Below are positions 19,518 through 35,930 of a stretch of DNA of 37,483 nucleotides, piece after piece. The position numbers were made by a program, and so were the translations under genes. The DNA lies in contig JALWVU010000071.1 of the NCBI GenBank assembly GCA_027079305.1, positions 1-37,483 of the forward strand, written 5' to 3'. The first letter of the stretch is position 1. Every line of letters starts with the position of its first letter. The notes under the pieces are model-generated. The model was not told where the DNA came from. It was given only the letters and a program-made list of their open reading frames with translations, and did no database searches. This DNA comes from Aquificaceae bacterium (GTDB lineage: Bacteria > Aquificota > Aquificia > Aquificales > Aquificaceae).

Positions 19518-21314
19518 ATGGAAGTCCCGACCGGGAAGGTAAGGTGTTATATTACGGGTAAACTTAGAAGGGACACTCCGGAGGAGAGAGTAAGGCAAAG
19601 CGTTGCGAAAGCCTTAGTTGAAGAATACGGATACAGAAAAGAAGACATAGGGATAGAGTTTCCTATAAAGGTGGGCAGTTCTAAAAAGAGAGTCGATATA
19701 GCGGTATTTGAGGAGGGCAAGCCCCATACTCAGGAAAATATATACATCATAGTTGAAACTAAGAAGGAAGACGTTAAGCCATCGAATAAAAAGGAGGGTG
19801 TTGAGCAGTTAAAAAGCTACATGGCTTCCTGTATAAACTGTAAGTATGGTCTCTGGATAGGTAGTGAGAGGATAGCCCTTGAGAAAGTGAAGAAACTGGA
19901 TGTTTACGATTTTGAGGATATTCCGGACATCCCCCACGCTGGAGAGGCGAAACTTATCCGCCCCACAAGGAAAACTCTGAAAAGAGCGGTCAATCTCAAA
20001 CATGTTTTCAGAAGGATTCACAACTATATCTATGTCAATCAGGGGCTGCCTAAGGATAAGGCTTTTGAGGAGTTCCTCAAAATAATATTCGTAAAGGTCT
20101 ATGACGAGCAGTGGAGTGTAGGGAACTTGAAATTTTACATACTCCCGAACGAAGATATTTCAGATGTAAGGAAAAGGCTTGAGGATTTATTTGAAAGAGT
20201 TAAAGAAAACTATAGAGAGATTTTTAGACCTCACGAGAGGATTGAGCTTAACGATAGAGTTCTTAAATACGTGGTTTCGGAACTTCAAAGGTTCAGTTTT
20301 CTCGATACGGATACGGATATAAAGGGAGAAGCGTATGAGGAAATCGTTGGAGCTAACTTAAGAGGGGATAGAGGTGAATTCTTCACACCGAGAAATGTCT
20401 GTAACATGGCTGTAGAAATGGCTTTTGCTCTTTTCCCTCTTGAAAGACTTTTACAACCTGGGGGAATCAAAATCCTCGATCCTGCGGTAGGAACGGGAGG
20501 CTTCCTTATAGCCGGTTTGAATAAAATTAAGCAATTACTAAAAGAACACCTAAACCTCAAATACGATGAGCTAAGGGATAGATTAAGGCAGATAGCGGAT
20601 AGGAATTTTTACGGCATAGACTTTAATCCGTTTTTAGTGAAAGCTTCACAGATGAACATGGTAATGCATGGGGACGGCTACTCCAACATAGTTCATGCAA
20701 ACTCTTTGGAAAATCCTAAAGACTGGTCTGAGGAGGTTAAAAAGAAAATCCAATTAGAGAGCTTTGATCTTGTCATTACCAACCCGCCGTTCGGCAGTAA
20801 AGCCAGAATAGACGACCCGGAAATCTTAGCTCAGTATGAGATAGCACAAGGGAGCACGGGGCTACCTCCGGAACAACTTTTTATAGAGCGGTGCTATCAA
20901 TTTCTAAAGCCCGGCGGTATCATGGTAATAGTTCTTCCAGATAGCATACTGAGCAATCCCGGACTTAGAAAGATAAGAGAGTGGGTTCTTAGCAAGATGC
21001 AGATAATAGCCAGTATAGACCTTCCTACGGAAACCTTTGAGCCTTTTACAGGAACTCAGACGAGCATCCTTATAATGAGGAAGAAAACTCCAGAAGAAAT
21101 AAAATACGGAATCGGAAACTACGAAATTTTTATGACTATACCGCAGAAAGTGGGGCACGATAGGAGGGGAAATCCCTTATACAAGATGACACCTGAAGGA
21201 AACGTTATCTTGGATGAAAAGGGAAACCCGATCATAGACGACCAACTTTCCACAGTGGCGGAGCTTTTTAAGGAATGGTTAAGGAAAACGGGAGAGTTCT
21301 CCTATGCGGAGTGA
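19518..21314 (+). CDS. HsdR_N-type nuclease domain fused to type I-like N6-adenine DNA methyltransferase
   Basis: A 598-residue restriction-modification subunit. Residues about 20-150 match the N-terminal nuclease domain of type I HsdR: RVDIAVF with Asp60, then IIVETKKE with Glu80 and Lys82, the D...ExK spacing of PD-(D/E)xK enzymes, plus VEQLKSYMAS. From about 165 it is HsdM-like: a helical N-domain, EFFTPRNV (287-294), SAM motif DPAVGTGGF (321-329) and catalytic NPPF (422-425). No helicase motor domain is present. The layout predicts methylation and, if the nuclease is active, cleavage by one protein guided by the S subunit encoded next, which overlaps by 11 bases. Base composition is clearly more A/T-rich than ccsA and metE, indicating acquisition by transfer. 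Confidence 0.85.
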   Translation: MEVPTGKVRCYITGKLRRDTPEERVRQSVAKALVEEYGYRKEDIGIEFPIKVGSSKKRVDIAVFEEGKPHTQENIYIIVETKKEDVKPSNKKEGVEQLKSYMASCINCKYGLWIGSERIALEKVKKLDVYDFEDIPDIPHAGEAKLIRPTRKTLKRAVNLKHVFRRIHNYIYVNQGLPKDKAFEEFLKIIFVKVYDEQWSVGNLKFYILPNEDISDVRKRLEDLFERVKENYREIFRPHERIELNDRVLKYVVSELQRFSFLDTDTDIKGEAYEEIVGANLRGDRGEFFTPRNVCNMAVEMAFALFPLERLLQPGGIKILDPAVGTGGFLIAGLNKIKQLLKEHLNLKYDELRDRLRQIADRNFYGIDFNPFLVKASQMNMVMHGDGYSNIVHANSLENPKDWSEEVKKKIQLESFDLVITNPPFGSKARIDDPEILAQYEIAQGSTGLPPEQLFIERCYQFLKPGGIMVIVLPDSILSNPGLRKIREWVLSKMQIIASIDLPTETFEPFTGTQTSILIMRKKTPEEIKYGIGNYEIFMTIPQKVGHDRRGNPLYKMTPEGNVILDEKGNPIIDDQLSTVAELFKEWLRKTGEFSYAE

Positions 21315-22758
21315 ACATTTAACAAAAACCGATACAGAAGGTTTAAAATGGGTTTCAATACCGCTAAAGTTTATTCTTGAAGATAAGGAACTGAGATTAA
21401 ACGCTGGTTCTTATTCCCTTGAGTATATTGAAGCTGTGAGTGTAATTGAGAGTTTGAGAAATAAAGGATATGTGATAGAAAAGTTAGGAAAGTTAGCAGA
21501 AAAAGTTTTCGTTGGTGTGAGAAGTAAGAGATTATTCACTAACTCAAAAGAAGGAATTCCCTACTTAATGCCAGTGGATATCTTCAATTTTTTCCTACGT
21601 CCGCGCAAGTGGGTTAAAGTGCAAACGAGGGACTTAAATAATTGGTTCGTAGAACCTTATACAATTTTAATTACTCAATCTGGGGCTGTTGGCAGAACGC
21701 TAATAGCGAATGAATTATTTAAGGGAAAATCTTTATCTCCTAATCTAATCCGTTTCATCCCGAAGAAGGAACACCTAAACATCCTCGGATACATATACGC
21801 GTGGCTCAATACCAAATACTGTCAGGCTATGCTCACGAAAAATCTTTACGGTGCTACTGTAAAACATATAGAGCCTCACCACGTTGCGGAGCTTCCTATT
21901 CCGAGAATACATGAAGATAAAGAGCGTGAAATTCATGAATCCATTATGAAAGCTCATAAGTTAAGAGAATCCGCTCAGAAGATGCTGATGGAAGCGGAAG
22001 AGCTGTTTTATAAGGAGTTAAAACTCCCCAGATTGGATGAGGAACAGGTTGAATACTTTGGAGGTGAGAAAGGAAGAGAGGTTAAAGCCTTTACCATAAA
22101 ATCTTCCGAACTTGAGGATAGGCTTGATGCGGGGTATTATGTGCCATTAGCGAGAAAGTGTATAGAGATATTGAGGAATAATAGCTTAGGCAAAATAAGG
22201 TTGCTACATGAAGTTGCGGATGCTTTTGTTCCCCCGCGATTCAAGAGGCCTTACGTTGAAAATAAGGATGAGGGCGTAGCTCTAATTCAAGGAAAATACA
22301 TCCCCTTGGTAAGACTCTTGGAAGTCAAATACATTTGGAAAAGAATGAAAAACATAGAAAAATACAGAGTTAGAAAAGGATGGATATTGATAACACGTTC
22401 GGGAACTATAGGTCAGATTAGCTTGGTAAGTAGTTTGTTAGATAAACTTATAGGTTCAGACCATCTAATTAGAGTAATCCCCAAACAGATAAATCCCGGC
22501 TATTTAACCCTATTTCTTCTTAGCGATTACGGTCAGGTTCAATTTAAAAAACTGATTTACGGTGGAGTTGTGGATGAAATAGGAGAAGCGGGAGAGCTAT
22601 TTAAATATATTCAAATTCTCAAACCTAAAGACGAAAACTTAGAAAAAGACCTCGGCTCACTCGTCCTCTCCGCCTACGAAAAGAAAGACTTGGCAAATAA
22701 GATTGAGCAAGAAGCGGTAGAGAAGTTGGAATATTATATGAAGGAGGTTCTGATATGA
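21304..22758 (+). CDS. hsdS: Type I-like specificity (S) subunit with two target-recognition halves
   Basis: A 484-residue HsdS-like protein that would set the DNA target of the methyltransferase/nuclease. It is a tandem duplication: each half starts with RLxAGxY (RLNAGSY 31-37, RLDAGYY 273-279, 242 residues apart). Each contains ILITxSG ([11 protein letters not shown] at 121-131; [11 protein letters not shown] in the second half) and a [10 protein letters not shown] or [10 protein letters not shown] strand. Helical spacers follow (about 203-240 and 445-480). Two recognition domains imply a bipartite target. It overlaps the upstream gene by 11 bases, and its stop overlaps the metE start (ATGA). 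G+C is low (19 of 60 bases at 21421-21480). Confidence 0.9.
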
Positions 22759-26017: not shown

Positions 26018-27208
26018 ATGAGGAAACTGCTCAGTTTGGAGAACCTTACCCTCGTTGCCATACTGCTCGGGGCTGTTTCCGGAGTATACATTCCGGAGCT
26101 GATGCTTAAGCTGAAACTTCTCGGAGAAGTCTTTCTGAGTCTTCTTAAGATGATAATCGTTCCTCTTGTGTTTACCTCCGTGTTCGTGGCCATGCTCGGT
26201 TTGGGAGAGGTGTCCAGGTTTAGAGACATGGGTCTCAAGACCATCGCCTACTATATGACCACAACCGCCCTTGCGGTCCTCGTAGGACTTTTACTGGTAA
26301 ACTTGATCGGGCCTGGTAAGGGGGAGGAGATAGTCCACAGGAGCACAGAGGTTCCAGATGTGAAGGAGCTTACATTCGAAGACGTGGTGTGGAACATAAT
26401 CCCCTCAAACCCGATCAAGAGCTTCGTTGAGGGTAAGGTTCTACAGATAATCTTCTTTGCGGTTCTCTTTGGCCTCGCTACCCTTGCTGTTTCCAAAGAA
26501 AAGAAGGGGCATGTCTTTAACCTCTTTGACGGGCTCAACGAAGGCCTGATAAACCTTACAAAGTGGATCATAAAGCTCACGCCGATAGGTGTCTTTTCCC
26601 TCGTGGGCTTTATAGTGGCTGACATGGGTGTGGAGGTTCTGCTCTCGCTTTGGAAGTATGCCCTTACTGTGGTTCTGGGCCTTCTAATCCATGCTTTTAT
26701 AACCCTTCCTCTCCTTGCCTTCTTATTGGGAAGGTATAACCCTTACAGATACTTTCTGAAGGTCAGAGAGGCTCCCCTTCTTGCCTTTTCGACCGCTTCG
26801 AGCGCAGCAACCTTGCCCGTTTCCATGCAGGTCGCTGAGGAGAAGGGAGGTGTCAGGAAGGAAACTGCCGGATTTGTTCTCCCCCTTGGGGCAACCATAA
26901 ACATGGATGGAACCGCTCTATACGAATCGGTCGCGGCGGTCTTCATAGCCAACGTCTATGGCGTAGATCTCGGTATACCCCAGATGGTAATGATATTCCT
27001 GACCGCCACCCTCGCCTCCATCGGTGCCGCGGCCATACCTGGAGCGGGTCTCGTGATGCTTACACTCGTCCTCAGCTCTGTGGGAGTTCCCCTTGAAGGA
27101 ATAGGGCTCATAATAGCGGTGGACAGGTTTCTGGACATGCTCAGGACCGCTGTGAACGTATGGGGAGACCTGAACGGTGCCAAGATAATAGACAGGTTCG
27201 TAAAATAG
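26018..27208 (+). CDS. Dicarboxylate/amino acid:cation symporter (DAACS family)
   Basis: A 396-residue integral membrane transporter of the GltP/DctA/GltPh family that moves glutamate, aspartate or C4-dicarboxylates with Na+ or H+. Family signatures in order: KMIIVPLVFTSVF in the early transmembrane region, the serine-rich hairpin STASSAATLP (about 255-264), the NMDGTALY motif of TM7, and the second re-entrant loop GAAAIPGAG followed by VDRFLDMLRTAVNVWGD, which carries the substrate-binding Asp, Arg and Asn. The Arg in DMLRTA points to an acidic substrate. Which substrate is used cannot be decided. The ROK kinase gene follows after 7 bases. Confidence 0.92.
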   Translation: MRKLLSLENLTLVAILLGAVSGVYIPELMLKLKLLGEVFLSLLKMIIVPLVFTSVFVAMLGLGEVSRFRDMGLKTIAYYMTTTALAVLVGLLLVNLIGPGKGEEIVHRSTEVPDVKELTFEDVVWNIIPSNPIKSFVEGKVLQIIFFAVLFGLATLAVSKEKKGHVFNLFDGLNEGLINLTKWIIKLTPIGVFSLVGFIVADMGVEVLLSLWKYALTVVLGLLIHAFITLPLLAFLLGRYNPYRYFLKVREAPLLAFSTASSAATLPVSMQVAEEKGGVRKETAGFVLPLGATINMDGTALYESVAAVFIANVYGVDLGIPQMVMIFLTATLASIGAAAIPGAGLVMLTLVLSSVGVPLEGIGLIIAVDRFLDMLRTAVNVWGDLNGAKIIDRFVK

Positions 27209-27215
27209 AAGAGCT

Positions 27216-28091
27216 GTGCTGAAGGGCGTGGACATAGGCGGTTCCTTCGTGAAGGTCCTGTGGGAGGACGGAAGAAGGGAGAAGCATCCCATAAGGGATC
27301 TGAAGGGGGACAGGGAGAGGCTCTTAAGAAGGATAAAGGAGGTAGTTCTCGAGGGTAATCCCGAGGGCGTGGGGGTTGCGGTGGCGGGCTTTACTTCCAG
27401 GGAGGGGAAGGTATACAGATCTCCTAACATCCCCGTCCTCGACGGGATGGACTTCGGGGAGCTCCTCGGGGATTCCGGAGTTAGGTTCGTGGTGGGGAAC
27501 GATGTAAGCGTGGGGGCATACGGAGAGTGGTTCTTCGACCACAGGGAGAGCAGGGTTCTCGTCCTTGTGGCTGTGGGGACCGGCCTCGGCGGGGGTCTGG
27601 TGGTCGATGGGAGGCCCTTCTTCGGTGTCTGCGGTTCCGCCATGGAGCTCGGGCACCACGTGGTAGAGAAGAACGGGAGCCTCTGTAACTGCGGAAGGAG
27701 GGGATGCTGGGAGGCCTACTGCTCCTCTTACGGGCTGGAGAGGATCTACAGAAGGCTGGGAGGTAAGGATATAAGGGACCACGAGATAATAGGTCGGGCA
27801 AAGGAGGGGGAGGGGAAGGCCCTGAGAGCTGTCGAGATCTTCAAGGAATACCTCTCCCTGGGTCTGATGAACGTGGTCCACCTATTCGATCCAGACCGCA
27901 TAGTCCTCGGGGGAGGCGTCATAGAGGGGATGAGGGAGCTTCTGGGAGACCTTGAGGAGAGGGTAAGGGAGCTTTCGGAGGACCTTCCGGGCTCCTGCGT
28001 GAGGGTGTCCTTATCCGAGGCGGGAGAGTTCCTGGTGGCGAGGGGTGCCCTGGCTTTCATTCGGGCAAGTGGGACCGATATTAGAGTTTAA
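27216..28091 (+). CDS. ROK-family sugar kinase
   Basis: A 291-residue ROK protein, probably a glucokinase or related hexose kinase. Visible: phosphate-binding DIGGS (6-10), the catalytic Asp96 in VGNDVS, the second phosphate loop GTGLGGG (121-127), ELGH (144-147) and the zinc-binding ROK motif C157NCGRRGC164WE. No DNA-binding N-terminal domain is present, so it is an enzyme rather than a ROK repressor. The GTG start (27216) has only a weak ribosome site and lies 7 bases after the symporter. The stop overlaps the next start by 1 base (TAATG). ROK kinases differ in substrate (glucose, fructose, N-acetylmannosamine), so no gene symbol is given. Confidence 0.9.
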   Translation: MLKGVDIGGSFVKVLWEDGRREKHPIRDLKGDRERLLRRIKEVVLEGNPEGVGVAVAGFTSREGKVYRSPNIPVLDGMDFGELLGDSGVRFVVGNDVSVGAYGEWFFDHRESRVLVLVAVGTGLGGGLVVDGRPFFGVCGSAMELGHHVVEKNGSLCNCGRRGCWEAYCSSYGLERIYRRLGGKDIRDHEIIGRAKEGEGKALRAVEIFKEYLSLGLMNVVHLFDPDRIVLGGGVIEGMRELLGDLEERVRELSEDLPGSCVRVSLSEAGEFLVARGALAFIRASGTDIRV

Positions 28092-29644
28092 TGGAAGGCA
28101 GAAGGGTAGAGGGCGTCTTCTTAGACACCGCCATACTCAGGAACAGGGCCTACGAGGCCTACGAGACCGCAAGGGTCCTTGAGATAAGGGTTCTCTCGAG
28201 TGTTCCCCAGGCTCTCCTTGCTTCACTCGGGGATCTGGGGTCCAGACTCAGGGCAACGGTGAGATCTTACGACCAGAACAGGGTGGTCCTTCAGCTGGAG
28301 AACGGCTTCGAGGTGGAGGCGGAAAACAGGCTCTCGGTGATGGTGGAGCCCGGTGAGGAGCTCTCCCTTGTGGTGGAGTCCAAGAATCCCCTCATCCTCA
28401 GGGTGGAGGGAGGCTTTTACGGGATAAGGGGCATAAGGGACCTGCTGGGCAGGGTCCTCGAGCTCGGTGTGAGGCTCATCCCCCAGAGGCTCGAGGAGAG
28501 CCTCAAAGACTCGGGCCTAATTTATGAGAGGAAGGTCTGGGACTTTCTGAGAGGAAAGATAGACCTCGAAGATCTCTCCAGGGACCAGAAGTTCGTGCTC
28601 CTCAAAACCCTGGAGAATCTGGACACGGGGCCAATAGAGAGGACCCTGAGGTCGGCCCGCTTTCCTGAGGATCTGAGGCCTCTCGTCAGGTCCATCTTGG
28701 AGAGGCTCGAGGCGGGGGACAGACTCGGTTTCTTCAAAGGCCTTGTGGAGCTCGAAAACGGCCTCGAGAGGGCCATCTCCTTCAGGGAGCAGAGGCTCAC
28801 TCTCATAAGGGAGACCATAGGAAGCGTTGTCAGGAGCCTTGTGGAGAACCTGATAAAGGTCTTCCGCTCCGCAGAAATAGAAGTCCAGCTAAAGGAGGAG
28901 GTCTTCTCCTCACTCAGGGAGAGTCCCAGATTCCTGGACATCCTCAGGGAGGCCTTCAGAAGCCTGGAGGAAGGGAGGTTCTCCGAGTTTTCGAGGAGGC
29001 TCGAGCTTGCGGGCCTGAAGATACTCAACGAGGAAGCCCTTCCGAAGGAGGCCCAGAGGATCCTCAGATCCCTCGGGGAGCTCATAAGGGGTGCGGAAGT
29101 TTCCATAAGGTCCAAGCTCGAGGCTGAGAACCTCCAGGATCTCATATCCAGGCAGAGGGAGATCTCCAAAGAGCTCGAGGAGCTGAGGGAGATAAGGGGT
29201 AGGATAGAGGAGCTTCCGAAGCAGATAAAAGAGAGCCTGAAGGGCCTCGAAACTCTCGGCATGCTCCAGGCCTACATGGTTATGAACCAGGCGAAGAGGT
29301 TCTTAGTTCCCTTCAGGTTCGAGGAGGAAAGGGGGATAATTGGCTTCTCTTTAAGGGACTCCTACCGCATATTCGTCAGGCTCGAGCTGGAGGGGGGCTT
29401 TCTCGGCATCCTGATGGAGGCCCCGAGGAAGGAGAGTCCGGACTTCATCTCCGTCCTCTTCAGAACTGACCTGGAGGATCTTGCAAGAAAGCTGAGCAGG
29501 CACGGGGAGGAGCTCAGGAAGGATCTGGTCTCACTTGGACTCGAGGTTAGGAGACTTGAGGTTTTCGAAGACAGGGAGGGAGAGTTCGAGAGGGAGATGG
29601 CGGAAGAGTTCGGGGGGGCGGGGACCTTCAACCTGAGGGTGTAG
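28091..29644 (+). CDS. FliK-like hook-length-control-type protein
   Basis: A 517-residue, mostly helical, charged protein. Residues about 60-110 form a small beta-rich segment (VRSYDQNRVVLQLENG, VMVEPGEELSLVVES). About 130-385 is long helical repeats with Leu/Arg/Glu heptads. About 395-485 resembles the C-terminal Flg_hook domain of FliK (RIFVRLELEGGFLGILMEAP, then ELRKDLVSLGLEVRRLEV). FliK measures hook length and switches export specificity through the FlhB C-domain. The next gene encodes a lone FlhB C-domain homolog, the same pairing as ylqG-ylqH of Bacillus (from memory), which supports the call. Homology is weak by eye and no other flagellar gene is near. The start overlaps the ROK stop by 1 base. 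Confidence 0.6.
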   Translation: MEGRRVEGVFLDTAILRNRAYEAYETARVLEIRVLSSVPQALLASLGDLGSRLRATVRSYDQNRVVLQLENGFEVEAENRLSVMVEPGEELSLVVESKNPLILRVEGGFYGIRGIRDLLGRVLELGVRLIPQRLEESLKDSGLIYERKVWDFLRGKIDLEDLSRDQKFVLLKTLENLDTGPIERTLRSARFPEDLRPLVRSILERLEAGDRLGFFKGLVELENGLERAISFREQRLTLIRETIGSVVRSLVENLIKVFRSAEIEVQLKEEVFSSLRESPRFLDILREAFRSLEEGRFSEFSRRLELAGLKILNEEALPKEAQRILRSLGELIRGAEVSIRSKLEAENLQDLISRQREISKELEELREIRGRIEELPKQIKESLKGLETLGMLQAYMVMNQAKRFLVPFRFEEERGIIGFSLRDSYRIFVRLELEGGFLGILMEAPRKESPDFISVLFRTDLEDLARKLSRHGEELRKDLVSLGLEVRRLEVFEDREGEFEREMAEEFGGAGTFNLRV

Positions 29645-29646
29645 CC

Positions 29647-29910
29647 ATGGAGGAGAAGAAGAAGGCGGTCGCTCTCAGATACGATCCTCAGAAGGACAGG
29701 GCACCCGTTGTGGTGGCCAAGGGAAGAGGTGAGCTTGCGGAGAAGATCATAGAGCTTGCGAAGAAGGAGGGCATCCCCGTGGTGGAGGACAGGAACCTGG
29801 TAGAGGCCCTTCTGAGGATAGAGGTCTTCGAGGAGATCCCTCCCGTCCTGTATGAGGCGGTTGCCCGGGTCCTGGTTTTCGTTCAGGAGGTCAGGAAGAG
29901 ACCTTTCTGA
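29647..29910 (+). CDS. Free-standing FlhB C-terminal domain homolog (FhlB/YlqH type)
   Basis: An 87-residue protein matching only the cytoplasmic C-terminal part of FlhB/YscU. It begins with KKKAVALRYDPQKDRAPVVVAKG, which in FlhB directly follows the self-cleaving NPTH site, and continues with ELAKKEGIPVVEDRNLVEALLRI and IPPVLYEAVARVLVFV. It lacks the membrane domain and NPTH, so it equals the cleaved FlhB-CC fragment. Such proteins can partly replace FlhB-CC in some bacteria (family knowledge). It follows the FliK-like gene by 2 bases and overlaps the convergent NfeD gene by 20 bases. Confidence 0.85.
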   Translation: MEEKKKAVALRYDPQKDRAPVVVAKGRGELAEKIIELAKKEGIPVVEDRNLVEALLRIEVFEEIPPVLYEAVARVLVFVQEVRKRPF

Positions 29911-31183
29911 CCCTGAGTTTAAGACCCCTCACCTCCAAAACCTCTACCCTGTCCCCCTTCTTTATCTCCTCCTCCCCGAGGGCATCCCAGATCTCGCCGT
30001 GGACGAGGACCTTCCCCTTTCCCTTTTTAAAGTCCGTTATAGCCTCTCCCTCCTCACCCACCATTCCCTCAGCTCCCGTGAGCTTCCTCCTCCTCTGGGC
30101 CTTCAGGCCGAACCTCCCCGCCACGAGGAAGAAGAGGACGCTCGCAAAGACGACGGTCGCTATAATGGTCTTGGGGAGCTCCCCGTAGGGGGACTCGGGG
30201 TCTATCAAAAATAGGGACCCCAGAGCCAGAGAGATTATCCCTCCCACCGCCAGCGCCCCGAAGGTGGGCGTTATAAGCTCTAAAACGAAGAGAAGTATCC
30301 CCAGTATTATCAGCAGAAGCCCCAGCCAGTTCATGGAGATCAGAGATAGACCGTAGAGTCCCAGGAGCAGGCATATGGCCCCCACAACTCCGGGAACCAC
30401 CGCGCCGGGGTTGTAGAGCTCGAAGAAGATCCCGTAAAAGCCAAGCATGAGGAGGAGGTAGGCCACGGTAGGATTGGTGATTATCTTTAGAAGTTCCTCC
30501 TTAAGGTTTTCCTCCAGAAACACCACCTCCTCCCCTTCCGTCTCTATCTCCAGCTCCCTCCCCAGCTTCTTCACCTTCCTCCCGTCTATCTTCTTCAGGA
30601 GGTCCTTCAGATCCACCGCTATAAGGTCTATCACGCCCTCCTCGAGGGCCTCCTCCGCGGAGAGGGAGAGGCTCTCTTTGACCATCCTCTCCACCACCTC
30701 CACGTTCCTCCCCTTCTCCTTGGCTATGCTCCTGACGAAGGCGAGCATGTCCTGGAGGATCTTCTTCTCCATGACGTCCTTCCCTTCCCTCTTTGAGTCC
30801 CTCCTCTCGCCGGAAACACCGCCCACCCGGACGGGGTGCGCCGCGCCTATGTTGGTTCCCGGCGCCATGACTGCCACGTCCGCGGAGATGGTGATTATGG
30901 CTCCCGCGGAGGCCGCCCTACCTCCGGAAGGATAGACGAACACCACCACGGGTAAAGAGGACCCCTGAAACCTCTGGACTATCTTCCTCATGGACTCCGC
31001 GAGCCCCCCGGGAGTGTTGAGTTCGAGGACATAGAGTGTTCCCCCTTCCCTCTCCGCCTTGGTAAGGGTCCTGTCAATGTAATCCGCGGTTATAGGCGTT
31101 ATGGGGCCGTCCCACTTGGCGGTGAAGACCTTGGAGAAGGAGAGGCTTAAGAGCACCAAGAAAACCGTCAGGGCGGTCAACAT
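29891..31183 (-). CDS. NfeD-family membrane-bound serine protease (ClpP/SppA-like)
   Basis: A roughly 430-residue membrane protein of the long NfeD class. A signal/anchor (about 1-22) is followed by a ClpP-like protease domain with GPITPITADYI, LELNTPGGL and the nucleophile in RAASAG (Ser93 counted from GTG 31186). Lys142 in KKILQD is the probable general base by comparison with the archaeal PH1510 dyad. Four to five membrane helices (about 235-345) and a C-terminal OB-fold NfeD domain (about 370-430) follow. Archaeal homologs cleave stomatin-like proteins; no stomatin gene is adjacent here. ATG 31183 is preferred over GTG 31186 because it lies 7 bases from the -10 box. It shares its promoter region with rimI. 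Confidence 0.88.
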   Translation of the reverse strand: MLTALTVFLVLLSLSFSKVFTAKWDGPITPITADYIDRTLTKAEREGGTLYVLELNTPGGLAESMRKIVQRFQGSSLPVVVFVYPSGGRAASAGAIITISADVAVMAPGTNIGAAHPVRVGGVSGERRDSKREGKDVMEKKILQDMLAFVRSIAKEKGRNVEVVERMVKESLSLSAEEALEEGVIDLIAVDLKDLLKKIDGRKVKKLGRELEIETEGEEVVFLEENLKEELLKIITNPTVAYLLLMLGFYGIFFELYNPGAVVPGVVGAICLLLGLYGLSLISMNWLGLLLIILGILLFVLELITPTFGALAVGGIISLALGSLFLIDPESPYGELPKTIIATVVFASVLFFLVAGRFGLKAQRRRKLTGAEGMVGEEGEAITDFKKGKGKVLVHGEIWDALGEEEIKKGDRVEVLEVRGLKLRVRKVSS

Positions 31184-31190
31184 CACCTTA

Positions 31191-33577: not shown

Positions 33578-34462
33578 ATGTTCGAAGGCTCCATAGTTGC
33601 CCTAATAACACCCTTCAAGGACGGAGAGGTAGACTACGATGCCCTCGGAAAACTCATAGACTTCCACATCGACAACGGAACCGACGCTATCCTCGTCTGC
33701 GGAACTACCGGAGAGTCTCCGACCCTTACCTTCGAGGAGCACGACAGGGTGGTAGAGTTCGCTGTAAAGCACTCCGCGGGTAGGATAAAGGTCATAGCGG
33801 GAACGGGAGCGAACGCCACCCACGAGGCTGTCCATCTGACCGCCCACGCCAAAGAGGTGGGAGCGGACGCGGCGCTTTTGGTGGTCCCCTACTACAACAA
33901 GCCCACCCAAGAGGGACTCTACAGGCACTTTGCCACGGTTGCGGAGGAGGTGGACATTCCCATAATCCTCTACAACATACCTTCCAGAACGGGTGTGGAG
34001 ATCGCGGTAGATACCATCTACAGACTGGTCTCCGAGTATCCCAACATCGTTGGATCCAAAGAATCCACCCCCAACATGGACAGGATCTCAGAGATGAGAA
34101 AAAGGCTCGGGGACAACTTCTCTATACTCTCTGGGGACGACTCCCTGACCCTGCCCATGATGGCTCTGGGAGCTAAGGGAGTGATCTCTGTGGCAAACAA
34201 CATAGTTCCCAAAGAGATAAAGGCCCTTACCACCTTCGCGCTCGAGGGCAGGCTCGACAAGGCCAGAGAGCTCCACTACTACCTCTACGATCTCTTCAAG
34301 GTTCTGTTCATAGAGACGAACCCGATTCCCGTAAAGACCGCCTGCTGGATGATGGGAATGTGCGAGAAAGAGTTCAGATTGCCCATGTGCGAGATGAAGC
34401 CCGAGAACGAGAGGAAGCTGAGAGAGGTTCTCCAGAGATACAACCTACCCCTGAAAAACTAA
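33578..34462 (+). CDS. dapA: 4-hydroxy-tetrahydrodipicolinate synthase
   Basis: A 294-residue TIM-barrel aldolase condensing pyruvate with aspartate semialdehyde, the first committed step of lysine/diaminopimelate synthesis. Schiff-base Lys161 lies in VGSKEST; the Thr pair is in CGTTGESPT (41-49); Tyr132 and Arg137 are in LYNIPSRTG; VPYYNKPTQEG is typical. The start is ATG 33578 (MFEGSIVALITPF), the normal family N-terminus, rather than an open frame extending upstream. It heads a run of six plus-strand genes ending with recR, and supplies diaminopimelate for the peptidoglycan built by the PBP1A encoded elsewhere in the window. Confidence 0.96.
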   Translation: MFEGSIVALITPFKDGEVDYDALGKLIDFHIDNGTDAILVCGTTGESPTLTFEEHDRVVEFAVKHSAGRIKVIAGTGANATHEAVHLTAHAKEVGADAALLVVPYYNKPTQEGLYRHFATVAEEVDIPIILYNIPSRTGVEIAVDTIYRLVSEYPNIVGSKESTPNMDRISEMRKRLGDNFSILSGDDSLTLPMMALGAKGVISVANNIVPKEIKALTTFALEGRLDKARELHYYLYDLFKVLFIETNPIPVKTACWMMGMCEKEFRLPMCEMKPENERKLREVLQRYNLPLKN

Positions 34463-34473
34463 ATTATCTTCCC

Positions 34474-35301
34474 ATGGAAGAGTCCGGAGCGAAGTTCAAG
34501 GAAGGGGACATAGTCCTCGGATACTATCAGGTCCTCGGGATAATAGGAAGGGGGGACTTCGGTGTAGTCTATAAGGTAAAAGGTATAAAGGGAAGATATA
34601 GAGGGAAGATCCTCGCCCTCAAGGTCGCCTCCAATCCCTACGGGGTTGAATACCTATGGAAGGAAGCCCAGACCTTGATACTCCTGAACCACCCCAACAT
34701 AATCTCACTCCAGAGTTACCTCTACAAGAAGGACAGGGGAGAGCTCTACGTGCTCTACGAGCTTATGGACGTGGGGGACTTGAAGGACTACGTCCTCTCC
34801 AAGGGAGGTCTTTCGGAGGAGGAGGCTCTGAAGGTTCTCTGGAACATAACCAACGGCCTTGCCTTCCTCCACAGCAGAGGGTATATCCACAGCGATATAA
34901 AACCCGAGAACATATTCGGTAAGAAGGTCCTCAGAAGCATCGTCTGGAAGCTGGGAGACTTCGGACTCCTGAAGATAAGGGGGTCCGTTTCCGTCCTTGA
35001 TGTCAAGGGGACTCTCGGATACATAGCTCCGGAGGTCTTCAGGGGTGAGATACACAGAAGTAGCGACATATTCTCCTTAGGCTGTCTTTTCTACTTTACC
35101 CTATTCCAGAGGGACCCTTTCCACTCTGAGGACAGGAAGGAGAAGTTGAAAAGAAACAAGGAGTGCGTATACGAGGTTCCGAAGGGCTTTTCCCCCAAGG
35201 TGGAGGAGCTGATCAGAAGGATGCTGGAACCCGACTACAGAAAGAGGTTCAGGACCGCTGTTGAGCTTAAGGAATATCTCGTTTCGGAGGGACTCGTTTG
35301 A
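34474..35301 (+). CDS. Hanks-type Ser/Thr protein kinase (soluble, kinase domain only)
   Basis: A 275-residue cytosolic kinase. The glycine loop GRGDFG is at 25-30 (preceded by LGII), ATP-anchoring Lys50 in LALKVAS, helix-C Glu64, catalytic HSDIKPEN (139-146; Asp141, Lys143, Asn146), DFG (162-164), APE (185-187) and D198 in SSDIFSLG. The catalytic loop has Ser in place of the Arg of HRD, a non-RD kinase. There is no membrane segment, PASTA or sensor domain. The TTG start of the PP2C gene overlaps its stop (TTGA), so kinase and phosphatase are made as a matched pair. A weak TAAATT box ends 8 bases before ATG 34474. Confidence 0.92.
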   Translation: MEESGAKFKEGDIVLGYYQVLGIIGRGDFGVVYKVKGIKGRYRGKILALKVASNPYGVEYLWKEAQTLILLNHPNIISLQSYLYKKDRGELYVLYELMDVGDLKDYVLSKGGLSEEEALKVLWNITNGLAFLHSRGYIHSDIKPENIFGKKVLRSIVWKLGDFGLLKIRGSVSVLDVKGTLGYIAPEVFRGEIHRSSDIFSLGCLFYFTLFQRDPFHSEDRKEKLKRNKECVYEVPKGFSPKVEELIRRMLEPDYRKRFRTAVELKEYLVSEGLV

Positions 35302-35930
35302 GATACGTCTACGGGGAGCTGTGCAAAAACAGAGAGAGCTTCGCGGACAGGATCTACACATCGGAGGATACCTTCGCGGTCGCGGACGGTATGGGAACCG
35401 GACCAGGAGGTAGACTCGCCGCTGAGAAGGCCATATCGCTGGTGGATCGTAGCAGACCCTTTAAATCCTTGGACGAGATAAGAGGCTTTTTTGAGGAGGC
35501 CAACAGGGAAATAATGAAGGAGATAGCGAGGCTCGGAGACAGGCACGTGGCGGGAACTACCCTGAGCCTTCTTAGCTTTACTGACGATACTTTCCTGGTG
35601 GGGCATGTGGGAGACTCAAGAATATACCTGTTCAGGAACGGCAAATTAAAACTGCTGACACAGGATCAAATCACTTACAGGAATGGAAAGAAGTACGTGA
35701 AAGCCCTCGGAATAGAGTGGAGGCCGGAGGTCTACACTCTCGAGGATACCTTCCGGGAGGGAGATGTGTTCCTGCTCGTATCGGACGGCGTGGTGGACAG
35801 TCTCTCCGATCCGGAGATAGAATCGCTCCTCTGTCCAGATATAGAGCGGAGTGCGGAAAGGATACTGAGCCTTTACAGGGAGAACTGTCCTGAGGAGGAC
35901 CTCTCCTTCATCATAGTGGGTGTGGACTGA
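35298..35930 (+). CDS. PP2C-family Ser/Thr protein phosphatase
   Basis: A 210-residue PPM phosphatase, expected to reverse the partner kinase. Metal-binding and core motifs: VADGMG (28-33), AGTTLSLL (85-92), VGDSRIYLF (104-112), LVSDGVVDSLSD in the second half and a final EEDLSFIIV where family members have DNxT. It is slightly short compared with typical PP2C (about 230-250), because the N-terminal TRxxNED-type segment is abbreviated to KNRESFAD. The start is a TTG overlapping the kinase stop, with GGAGGG (35286-35291) in place. The family needs Mn2+ or Mg2+. Confidence 0.9.
   Translation: MRYVYGELCKNRESFADRIYTSEDTFAVADGMGTGPGGRLAAEKAISLVDRSRPFKSLDEIRGFFEEANREIMKEIARLGDRHVAGTTLSLLSFTDDTFLVGHVGDSRIYLFRNGKLKLLTQDQITYRNGKKYVKALGIEWRPEVYTLEDTFREGDVFLLVSDGVVDSLSDPEIESLLCPDIERSAERILSLYRENCPEEDLSFIIVGVD

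Follow-up and report, generated by a model that had tools for sequence, protein, structure and literature searches.

We report here a two-gene pair in a 37,483-nucleotide stretch of DNA from an Aquificaceae bacterium (assembly GCA_027079305.1, contig JALWVU010000071.1; hereafter the window, which is one whole contig, C71, of the genome). The pair encodes a FliK-like protein of 517 amino acids (28091..29644, plus strand) and, directly behind it, FlhX, a free FlhB C-terminal domain of 87 amino acids (29647..29910, plus strand). The two open reading frames (ORFs) lie on the same strand, FliK-like gene first, with a gap of 2 nucleotides. Both domains are present, their adjacency is conserved across phyla, the pair co-occurs with FlhB and the same genome carries a separate, ruler-like FliK candidate. 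The pair is probably a translation-coupled bicistron serving as an accessory specificity-switch module of flagellar type III export, through a putative FlhX–FliK-like complex at the gate. A first-pass annotation of the window had proposed that the FliK/FlhB-CC pair is repeated here in miniature, outside any flagellar cluster; the two domains and their adjacency agree with this description, and the flagellar genes that we found in this genome sit on contigs C45, C52, C73 and C75, not on C71.

FlhX matches the FlhB family profile PF01312 with 84.1 bits (cut-off, 24.4), only over profile positions 262–335 of 335, and 43 of 82 residues (52%) are identical to the C-domain of the organism's own FlhB, a 351-residue protein encoded on contig C73. 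That full-length FlhB carries NPTH, in the context NPTHIAIALRY, while FlhX has no membrane part, no NPTH autocleavage site and no 'PTH'. The protein had been equated with the FlhB fragment left after NPTH cleavage, which holds for its identity as a C-domain and not for its beginning: since it lacks PTH and starts MEEKKKAVALRY, FlhX equals the cleavage fragment minus the first residues. The best NCBIfam match is TIGR00789 (flhB_rel), with residues 4–84 placed on positions 2–82 of 84; the score of 106.5 bits stays below the curated cut-off of 117.35, and therefore the protein is of the FlhX type by its anatomy and not a formal member of TIGR00789. Using its AlphaFold2 (AF2) model (predicted local distance difference test, pLDDT, 69.7), the first Foldseek match is the cytoplasmic domain of Aquifex aeolicus FlhB (3b1s; E 1.7e-6). 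The 87-residue protein is thus a free FlhB C-domain of the FlhX type.

For the 517-residue protein, a FliK-like C-terminal region had been claimed, and a match to Flg_hook (PF02120) was to be expected. The single sequence reaches only 15.0 bits (E 0.021, residues 451–497) against a gathering cut-off of 29.8, but the match is found for the family: among 17 Aquificota relatives, 14 reach E <= 0.05 with Flg_hook, and one, in genome G072, is the only relative above the cut-off (32.3 bits). We then compared family profiles with hhalign, using 60 column shuffles per pair. The profile of the C-domain of the window-type proteins (A3, 19 rows) matched that of 19 canonical FliK domains (A5) with a probability of 91.8 and a score of 40.8 over 66 columns, the best of the shuffles reaching 14.2. 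It matched the profile of paired FliK-like proteins from other phyla (A6) with a score of 108.9 over 108 columns (maximum in the shuffles, 13.3), so that A3 is much nearer to A6 than to canonical FliK. The FlhX profile (A1), an unrelated control, scored 8.7–12.7, inside its own shuffles. This comparison rules out a chance similarity to FliK and, together with a FliK-type tail, bears out the earlier claim. At family level, the profiles firmly assign to the 517-residue protein a FliK-type (T3S4) C-domain, modelled by AF2 with a pLDDT of 87.5 over residues 384–517 (29240..29641, plus strand).

The protein ends in the pentapeptide F-N-L-R-V (29627..29641, plus strand), which fits the pattern hydrophobic-x-hydrophobic-x-[VIALT]. 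This pattern, formulated after inspection of the tails, is present in 84 of 89 FliK-type proteins (15/17, 31/31, 17/19 and 21/22 in four sets) and in 20 of 783 background proteins. In Salmonella FliK, the last five residues are required for switching, according to a passage in PMC10965912. Upstream of the C-domain, the paired (ylqG-type) subfamily to which the protein belongs has an N-terminal signature, D-S-G-L-I-Y-E-R-K ... D-x-K (residues ~140–167; 28508..28591, plus strand). A loose form of it occurs in 40 of 70 proteins encoded upstream of FlhX, a count that includes chance places, and in 3 of 19 canonical FliKs, none of which, by eye, has the E-x-K context after it. FoldIndex values fall below zero for 14% of the residues of the 517-residue protein, compared with medians of 40% in the 19 canonical FliKs and 65% in 22 proteins of a second FliK-like family described below, and the N-terminal part is accordingly predicted to be mostly folded, unlike a disordered ruler. 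Fold searches were less telling. Foldseek returned no match at E <= 0.001 for the AF2 model of the C-domain, and a second fold comparison placed the SS domain of PscP (5cuk) first (Z 5.5, root-mean-square deviation 3.2, 73 aligned residues), tied with actin-capping proteins, and FliK (2rrl) at rank 43 (Z 4.2, 69 aligned). In genus g20, apparent nonsense codons in the FliK-like match proved to be the natural ends of shorter proteins.

Alternatively, the 517-residue protein would be the hook-length ruler FliK of this organism, moved away from the flagellar operons, with FlhX as a by-standing duplicate. In favour of this, profile A3 has a single match in the genome. In addition, in 13 Aquificota genomes PF02120 matches FliK-like proteins only, 6 of 8 matches lying directly upstream of FlhX. 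We nevertheless hold this explanation to be unlikely, and a description of the 517-residue protein as the only FliK of the genome was dropped, once a second candidate was found on contig C45. This is a 574-residue ORF (C45:42258-43979; locus L089, 4259-5980) located near flgB/flgC, two genes before flgB, and followed by a TPR protein gene and two genes marked by Flg_bb_rod. Its FoldIndex is below zero over 76% of the residues, it contains 8% proline and it ends in GLNLLL. It has no Pfam match of any kind, so its identity as FliK rests on profile comparison, tail and position. Relatives were detected in 45 of 136 Aquificota genomes, and the profile of this C45 family (A4, taking 26 of the 30 loci found) matched canonical FliK with a probability of 86.9 and a score of 36.9 (best of 60 shuffles, 19.4). 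Against the window-type profile, it reached a probability of only 10.4, and the two are therefore not close paralogues. The 574-residue ORF is thus likely, from these sequence comparisons, to be a diverged ruler FliK that is invisible to Pfam. Other genes at the flagellar loci of this genome we take, by eye, to encode FliF, FliG and FliI. A separate, disordered FliK candidate beside the rod genes makes the pair most likely an accessory switch module and not the ruler; the predicted mostly folded state of the 517-residue protein, and the far closer relationship of A3 to the paired subfamily than to canonical FliK, also argue against a displaced ruler.

The distribution of the pair was surveyed in the 136 Aquificota genomes, of which 88 were considered good (>= 90% complete, <= 5% contaminated). 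FlhB-family matches were detected in 114 of the 136; for family f1, the second FlhB-family match of some genomes was inferred from the number of matches. FlhB is encoded in 76 of the good genomes, the gene being broken in G078 and cut in G114 and G033. The free C-domain accompanies it in 72 of the 76, in G078 only as a remnant. The co-occurrence with flagellar genes, suggested earlier as a check on the pair, is thus clearly visible. Neither FlhB nor the free C-domain was found in 10 of the 88, and two have the free C-domain without FlhB (G037 and G041), G041 retaining FlhA and rod genes. The FliK-like C-domain profile matched in 101 of the 136 genomes, mostly once in each.

The two genes are also closely spaced. 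Of 25 Aquificota loci scanned, 20 have the end of the FliK-like ORF between -4 and +2 nucleotides from the start of FlhX; the remaining five comprise three with FlhX and no FliK-like gene and two in which FlhX is absent from the stretch. In another scan, of 20 loci, both profiles match at 12, and at each of these 12 the ORFs are immediate neighbours. Two Aquificota families show the genes side by side. Of the 71 loci that were measurable in a second set of 81, 62 have their nearest long upstream ORF within 20 nucleotides, and in 22 the distance is exactly -4. Links to the flagellum itself are seen in one genus: in G105 (L214, 2865-4222) and G106 (L215, 2203-3564), the gene immediately after flhB is flhX. 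G110 belongs to this genus too, but there flhX follows a FliK-like gene, with an ORF ~1.6 kb away (locus L085) that by its looks we take to be FlgK. In G078 (99% complete; L212 and L213), four genes are broken: flhB, flhX, the FliK-like gene and one on L212 that we presume, by eye, to be fliR. In the congener G077, flhB and both genes of the pair are whole. G078 is therefore a case of flagellar decay caught in progress.

Several observations weigh against a role in flagellar switching or against the coupling of the two genes. FlhB occurs without FlhX in four good flagellated genomes (G113, G123, G124 and G125), and FlhX is therefore dispensable. FlhX lacks an adjacent FliK-like gene in G107, G114 and G129, and in Thermodesulfatator-type genomes (L140, L143, L149 and L161) flhX overlaps a long upstream ORF that is not FliK-like. 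The pair is present in G037 (99% complete), which has no match to FlhA, FlhB, FliP, rod proteins or the C45-type FliK, and in G100 (89% complete), which has none to FlhA, FlhB, FliP or rod proteins. Selection on the FliK-like gene, whose ORF is open to the contig edge in G037, is not relaxed along the branch to that genome, with a ratio of non-synonymous to synonymous substitution rates (dN/dS) of ~0.15 compared with 0.13 in the sister genome G035; the ratio for FlhX was not used, as the stop-to-stop stretches took in upstream bases. The contig with the pair in G037 is 90.3% identical to G035, compared with 94.9% for the sampled rest (63.7 kb), and this higher divergence makes contamination possible. 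It is possible that G037 reflects either a recent loss of flagella or a foreign contig.

These exceptions bear on two further explanations. In the first, drift or a use as insurance would have preserved FlhX as a passive spare for the C-fragment of FlhB, and its adjacency to a FliK-like gene would have no functional meaning. The lineages that carry FlhX without an adjacent FliK fit this explanation, and the Helicobacter pylori protein HP1575 is reportedly called a 'spare part' in the title of Wand et al. 2006. On the other hand, the adjacency and the near-zero spacing recur across phyla, and the paired FliK-like proteins form a recognizable subfamily, which makes a passive spare improbable. 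In the second, the pair would have left flagellar export for another cellular role, as could be read from its intact state in G037 and G100, where the tested flagellar families are missing, and from its metabolic neighbours in the window. We consider this very improbable given the strong co-occurrence with FlhB, the decay of the pair along with flhB in G078 and the position of flhX behind flhB in G105 and G106; the neighbours differ between genera and are thus little informative. The first-pass annotation had likewise left room for a function unrelated to export, which the co-occurrence with FlhB makes unlikely. As for the pair being present in genomes with no flagellar genes at all, this was seen, for the flagellar families tested, in a small minority, G037 and G100 only; in general the pair goes with flagella.

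For other phyla, 84,980 species genomes were searched for sequences similar to Aquificota FlhX; this gave 80 loci, a non-random sample in which many loci lie outside Aquificota. We examined the 50 genomes of 50 of these loci, mostly from other phyla, leaving out 29 loci with Aquificota names and L147, a near-copy of L145. Two of the 50, G136 and G141, are themselves Aquificota, with FlhB coordinates identical to those of G039 and G033, respectively. All 50 have a free FlhB C-domain, and 49, all except G175, have a full FlhB. Immediately before the free C-domain, PF02120 finds a match in 37 of the 50, over the Pfam cut-off in 28, and in 30 of the 50 this upstream match is accompanied by a second Flg_hook match elsewhere in the genome. 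Profile A6 was built from 31 of the 47 upstream proteins of non-Aquificota genomes, omitting the four of the Thermodesulfatator-type loci, which are not FliK-like, and 12 near-copies or poorly aligned sequences removed by eye. Because the genome of the window has a FliK candidate close to flgB/flgC, and because a second Flg_hook protein is present in 30 of the 50 pair-bearing genomes, the second specificity-switch module put forward in the first-pass annotation appears to be the best reading of these sequences. A decoy that tunes hook length, also put forward there, would be conceivable as well. Separately, G136 (L124) is a metagenome-assembled genome labelled 'Acidobacteria bacterium isolate J001'; it shares FlhB coordinates and score with the Aquificaceae genome G039, and its label therefore looks wrong.

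As an accessory switch module, the pair might operate as follows. FlhX would stand in for the cleaved C-fragment of FlhB, and the FliK-like protein would be its cognate partner, the T3S4-type domain and the last five residues binding FlhX in the cytosol, as their coupling, domain identity and tail suggest. The complex could act at the export gate beside FlhB/FlhA, where it would most likely either supply a replacement C-fragment or keep the tail of FliK away from the gate for as long as it is not needed. The result would be a tuning of when, or whether, early (rod/hook) export yields to late (filament) export, a site and a direction of action that we infer. A passage on Xanthomonas and H. pylori in PMC3040844 states that a free C-domain can function in trans, and the title of Wand et al. 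2006, with its 'spare part', agrees with this. In a 2026 Salmonella study (PMC13344023), the cleaved FlhB C-fragment is modelled as keeping the gate in its early mode, and the final residues of FliK are proposed to eject it. A more specific possibility, to which we give tentative and rather low credence, is that the pair works as a re-arming or anti-switch cartridge: FlhX would cap the pentapeptide of the co-translated non-ruler FliK, or would refill the place of the FlhB C-fragment after its ejection by FliK. If this were true, the supposedly irreversible switch from hook to filament could be delayed, reset or repaired in the many bacteria that bear the pair.

How FliK flips FlhB is still argued, and the pair offers a natural, soluble and small two-component version with which the idea of ejection could be probed. 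Many bacteria encode a further FliK, not a ruler, in translational coupling with a free version of precisely the C-fragment of FlhB, which suggests that the switch has an accessory layer that studies of Salmonella may miss.

In the window, the neighbours of the pair are metabolic genes. As the first-pass annotation had it, both ORFs lie behind a sugar kinase and a transporter: a ROK-family sugar kinase directly upstream (27216..28091, plus strand), a neighbour outside the module whose stop overlaps the start of the 517-residue ORF (28091) by one base, and, 5' of it, an SDF symporter (26018-27208). In the Aquificota loci scanned, the upstream neighbours vary by genus, family f2 having in this position a gene that we take, by eye, to encode peptide deformylase. 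A functional link between the pair and the sugar kinase was rejected because the upstream neighbours change between genera. On the minus strand, a gene for an NfeD/ClpP-type membrane protein (29891-31186) converges on flhX, the two ORFs overlapping by 20 bases.

Elsewhere in the window, an HsdR-type N-terminal domain (HSDR_N_2, 80.8 bits) is joined with an N6 DNA methylase in a single protein of 598 residues (19518-21314, plus strand), and the gene for a type I specificity subunit (21304-22758, plus strand) overlaps its end. A separate restriction subunit was not noticed in the ORF lists, and PADLOC matches at this locus include the models MTase_II, MTase_I, mads_2 and mads_5. A Ser/Thr protein kinase (34360-35301) and a PP2C phosphatase (35298-35930), both on the plus strand, are encoded by overlapping genes as a kinase-phosphatase couple.

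Among known systems, canonical FliK (Flg_hook) has in common with the 517-residue protein the T3S4-type C-domain and the C-terminal pentapeptide. The 517-residue protein differs from it in an extra conserved segment before the domain, in an N-terminal part that is predicted to be mostly folded, in having no PPELG-type motif and in lying outside a flagellar operon. FlhX has its counterparts in HP1575 (FlhB2) of H. pylori, in YlqH of Bacillus and in TIGR00789, which are also free FlhB C-domains of 80–95 residues with no membrane part. The arrangement of ylqG-ylqH in Bacillus is the same as that of the pair in the window: in Bacillus velezensis, YlqH is annotated as an 'FlhB-like flagellar biosynthesis protein', and a long upstream ORF overlaps its gene by 4 nucleotides. 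The upstream protein (L211, 2280-3983), which is outside the A6 profile, scores 33.7 bits with A6, 5.0 bits with the canonical A5 and 2.1 bits with the Aquificota A3, and it ends in KVDVKI; several canonical FliKs reach about equal A6 scores (up to 35.1 bits), and thus A6 alone cannot separate paired from canonical FliK. This ylqG-type gene is annotated as 'glycosyl transferase' in one record despite its match to the paired FliK profile, an annotation that can be corrected to a FliK-type gene upstream of an FlhB-like gene.

The same two-gene combination was named 'flhX-fliK' in Nitratiruptor, where it lies outside the large flagellar cluster and where the flagellar set is derived from Aquificota (PMC9321776); the portion of that article available to us gives the name only, with no word on a second FliK or on a role. 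FlhX is also listed among flagellar export proteins in a passage of PMC10746217. In the one open-access library searched, where absence is weak evidence, we met with no article that presents the pair as a module with a second FliK. The pair is therefore an already named, barely studied accessory of many flagellated bacteria, and the window adds a further member, of the same arrangement as ylqG-ylqH of Bacillus and flhX-fliK of Nitratiruptor.

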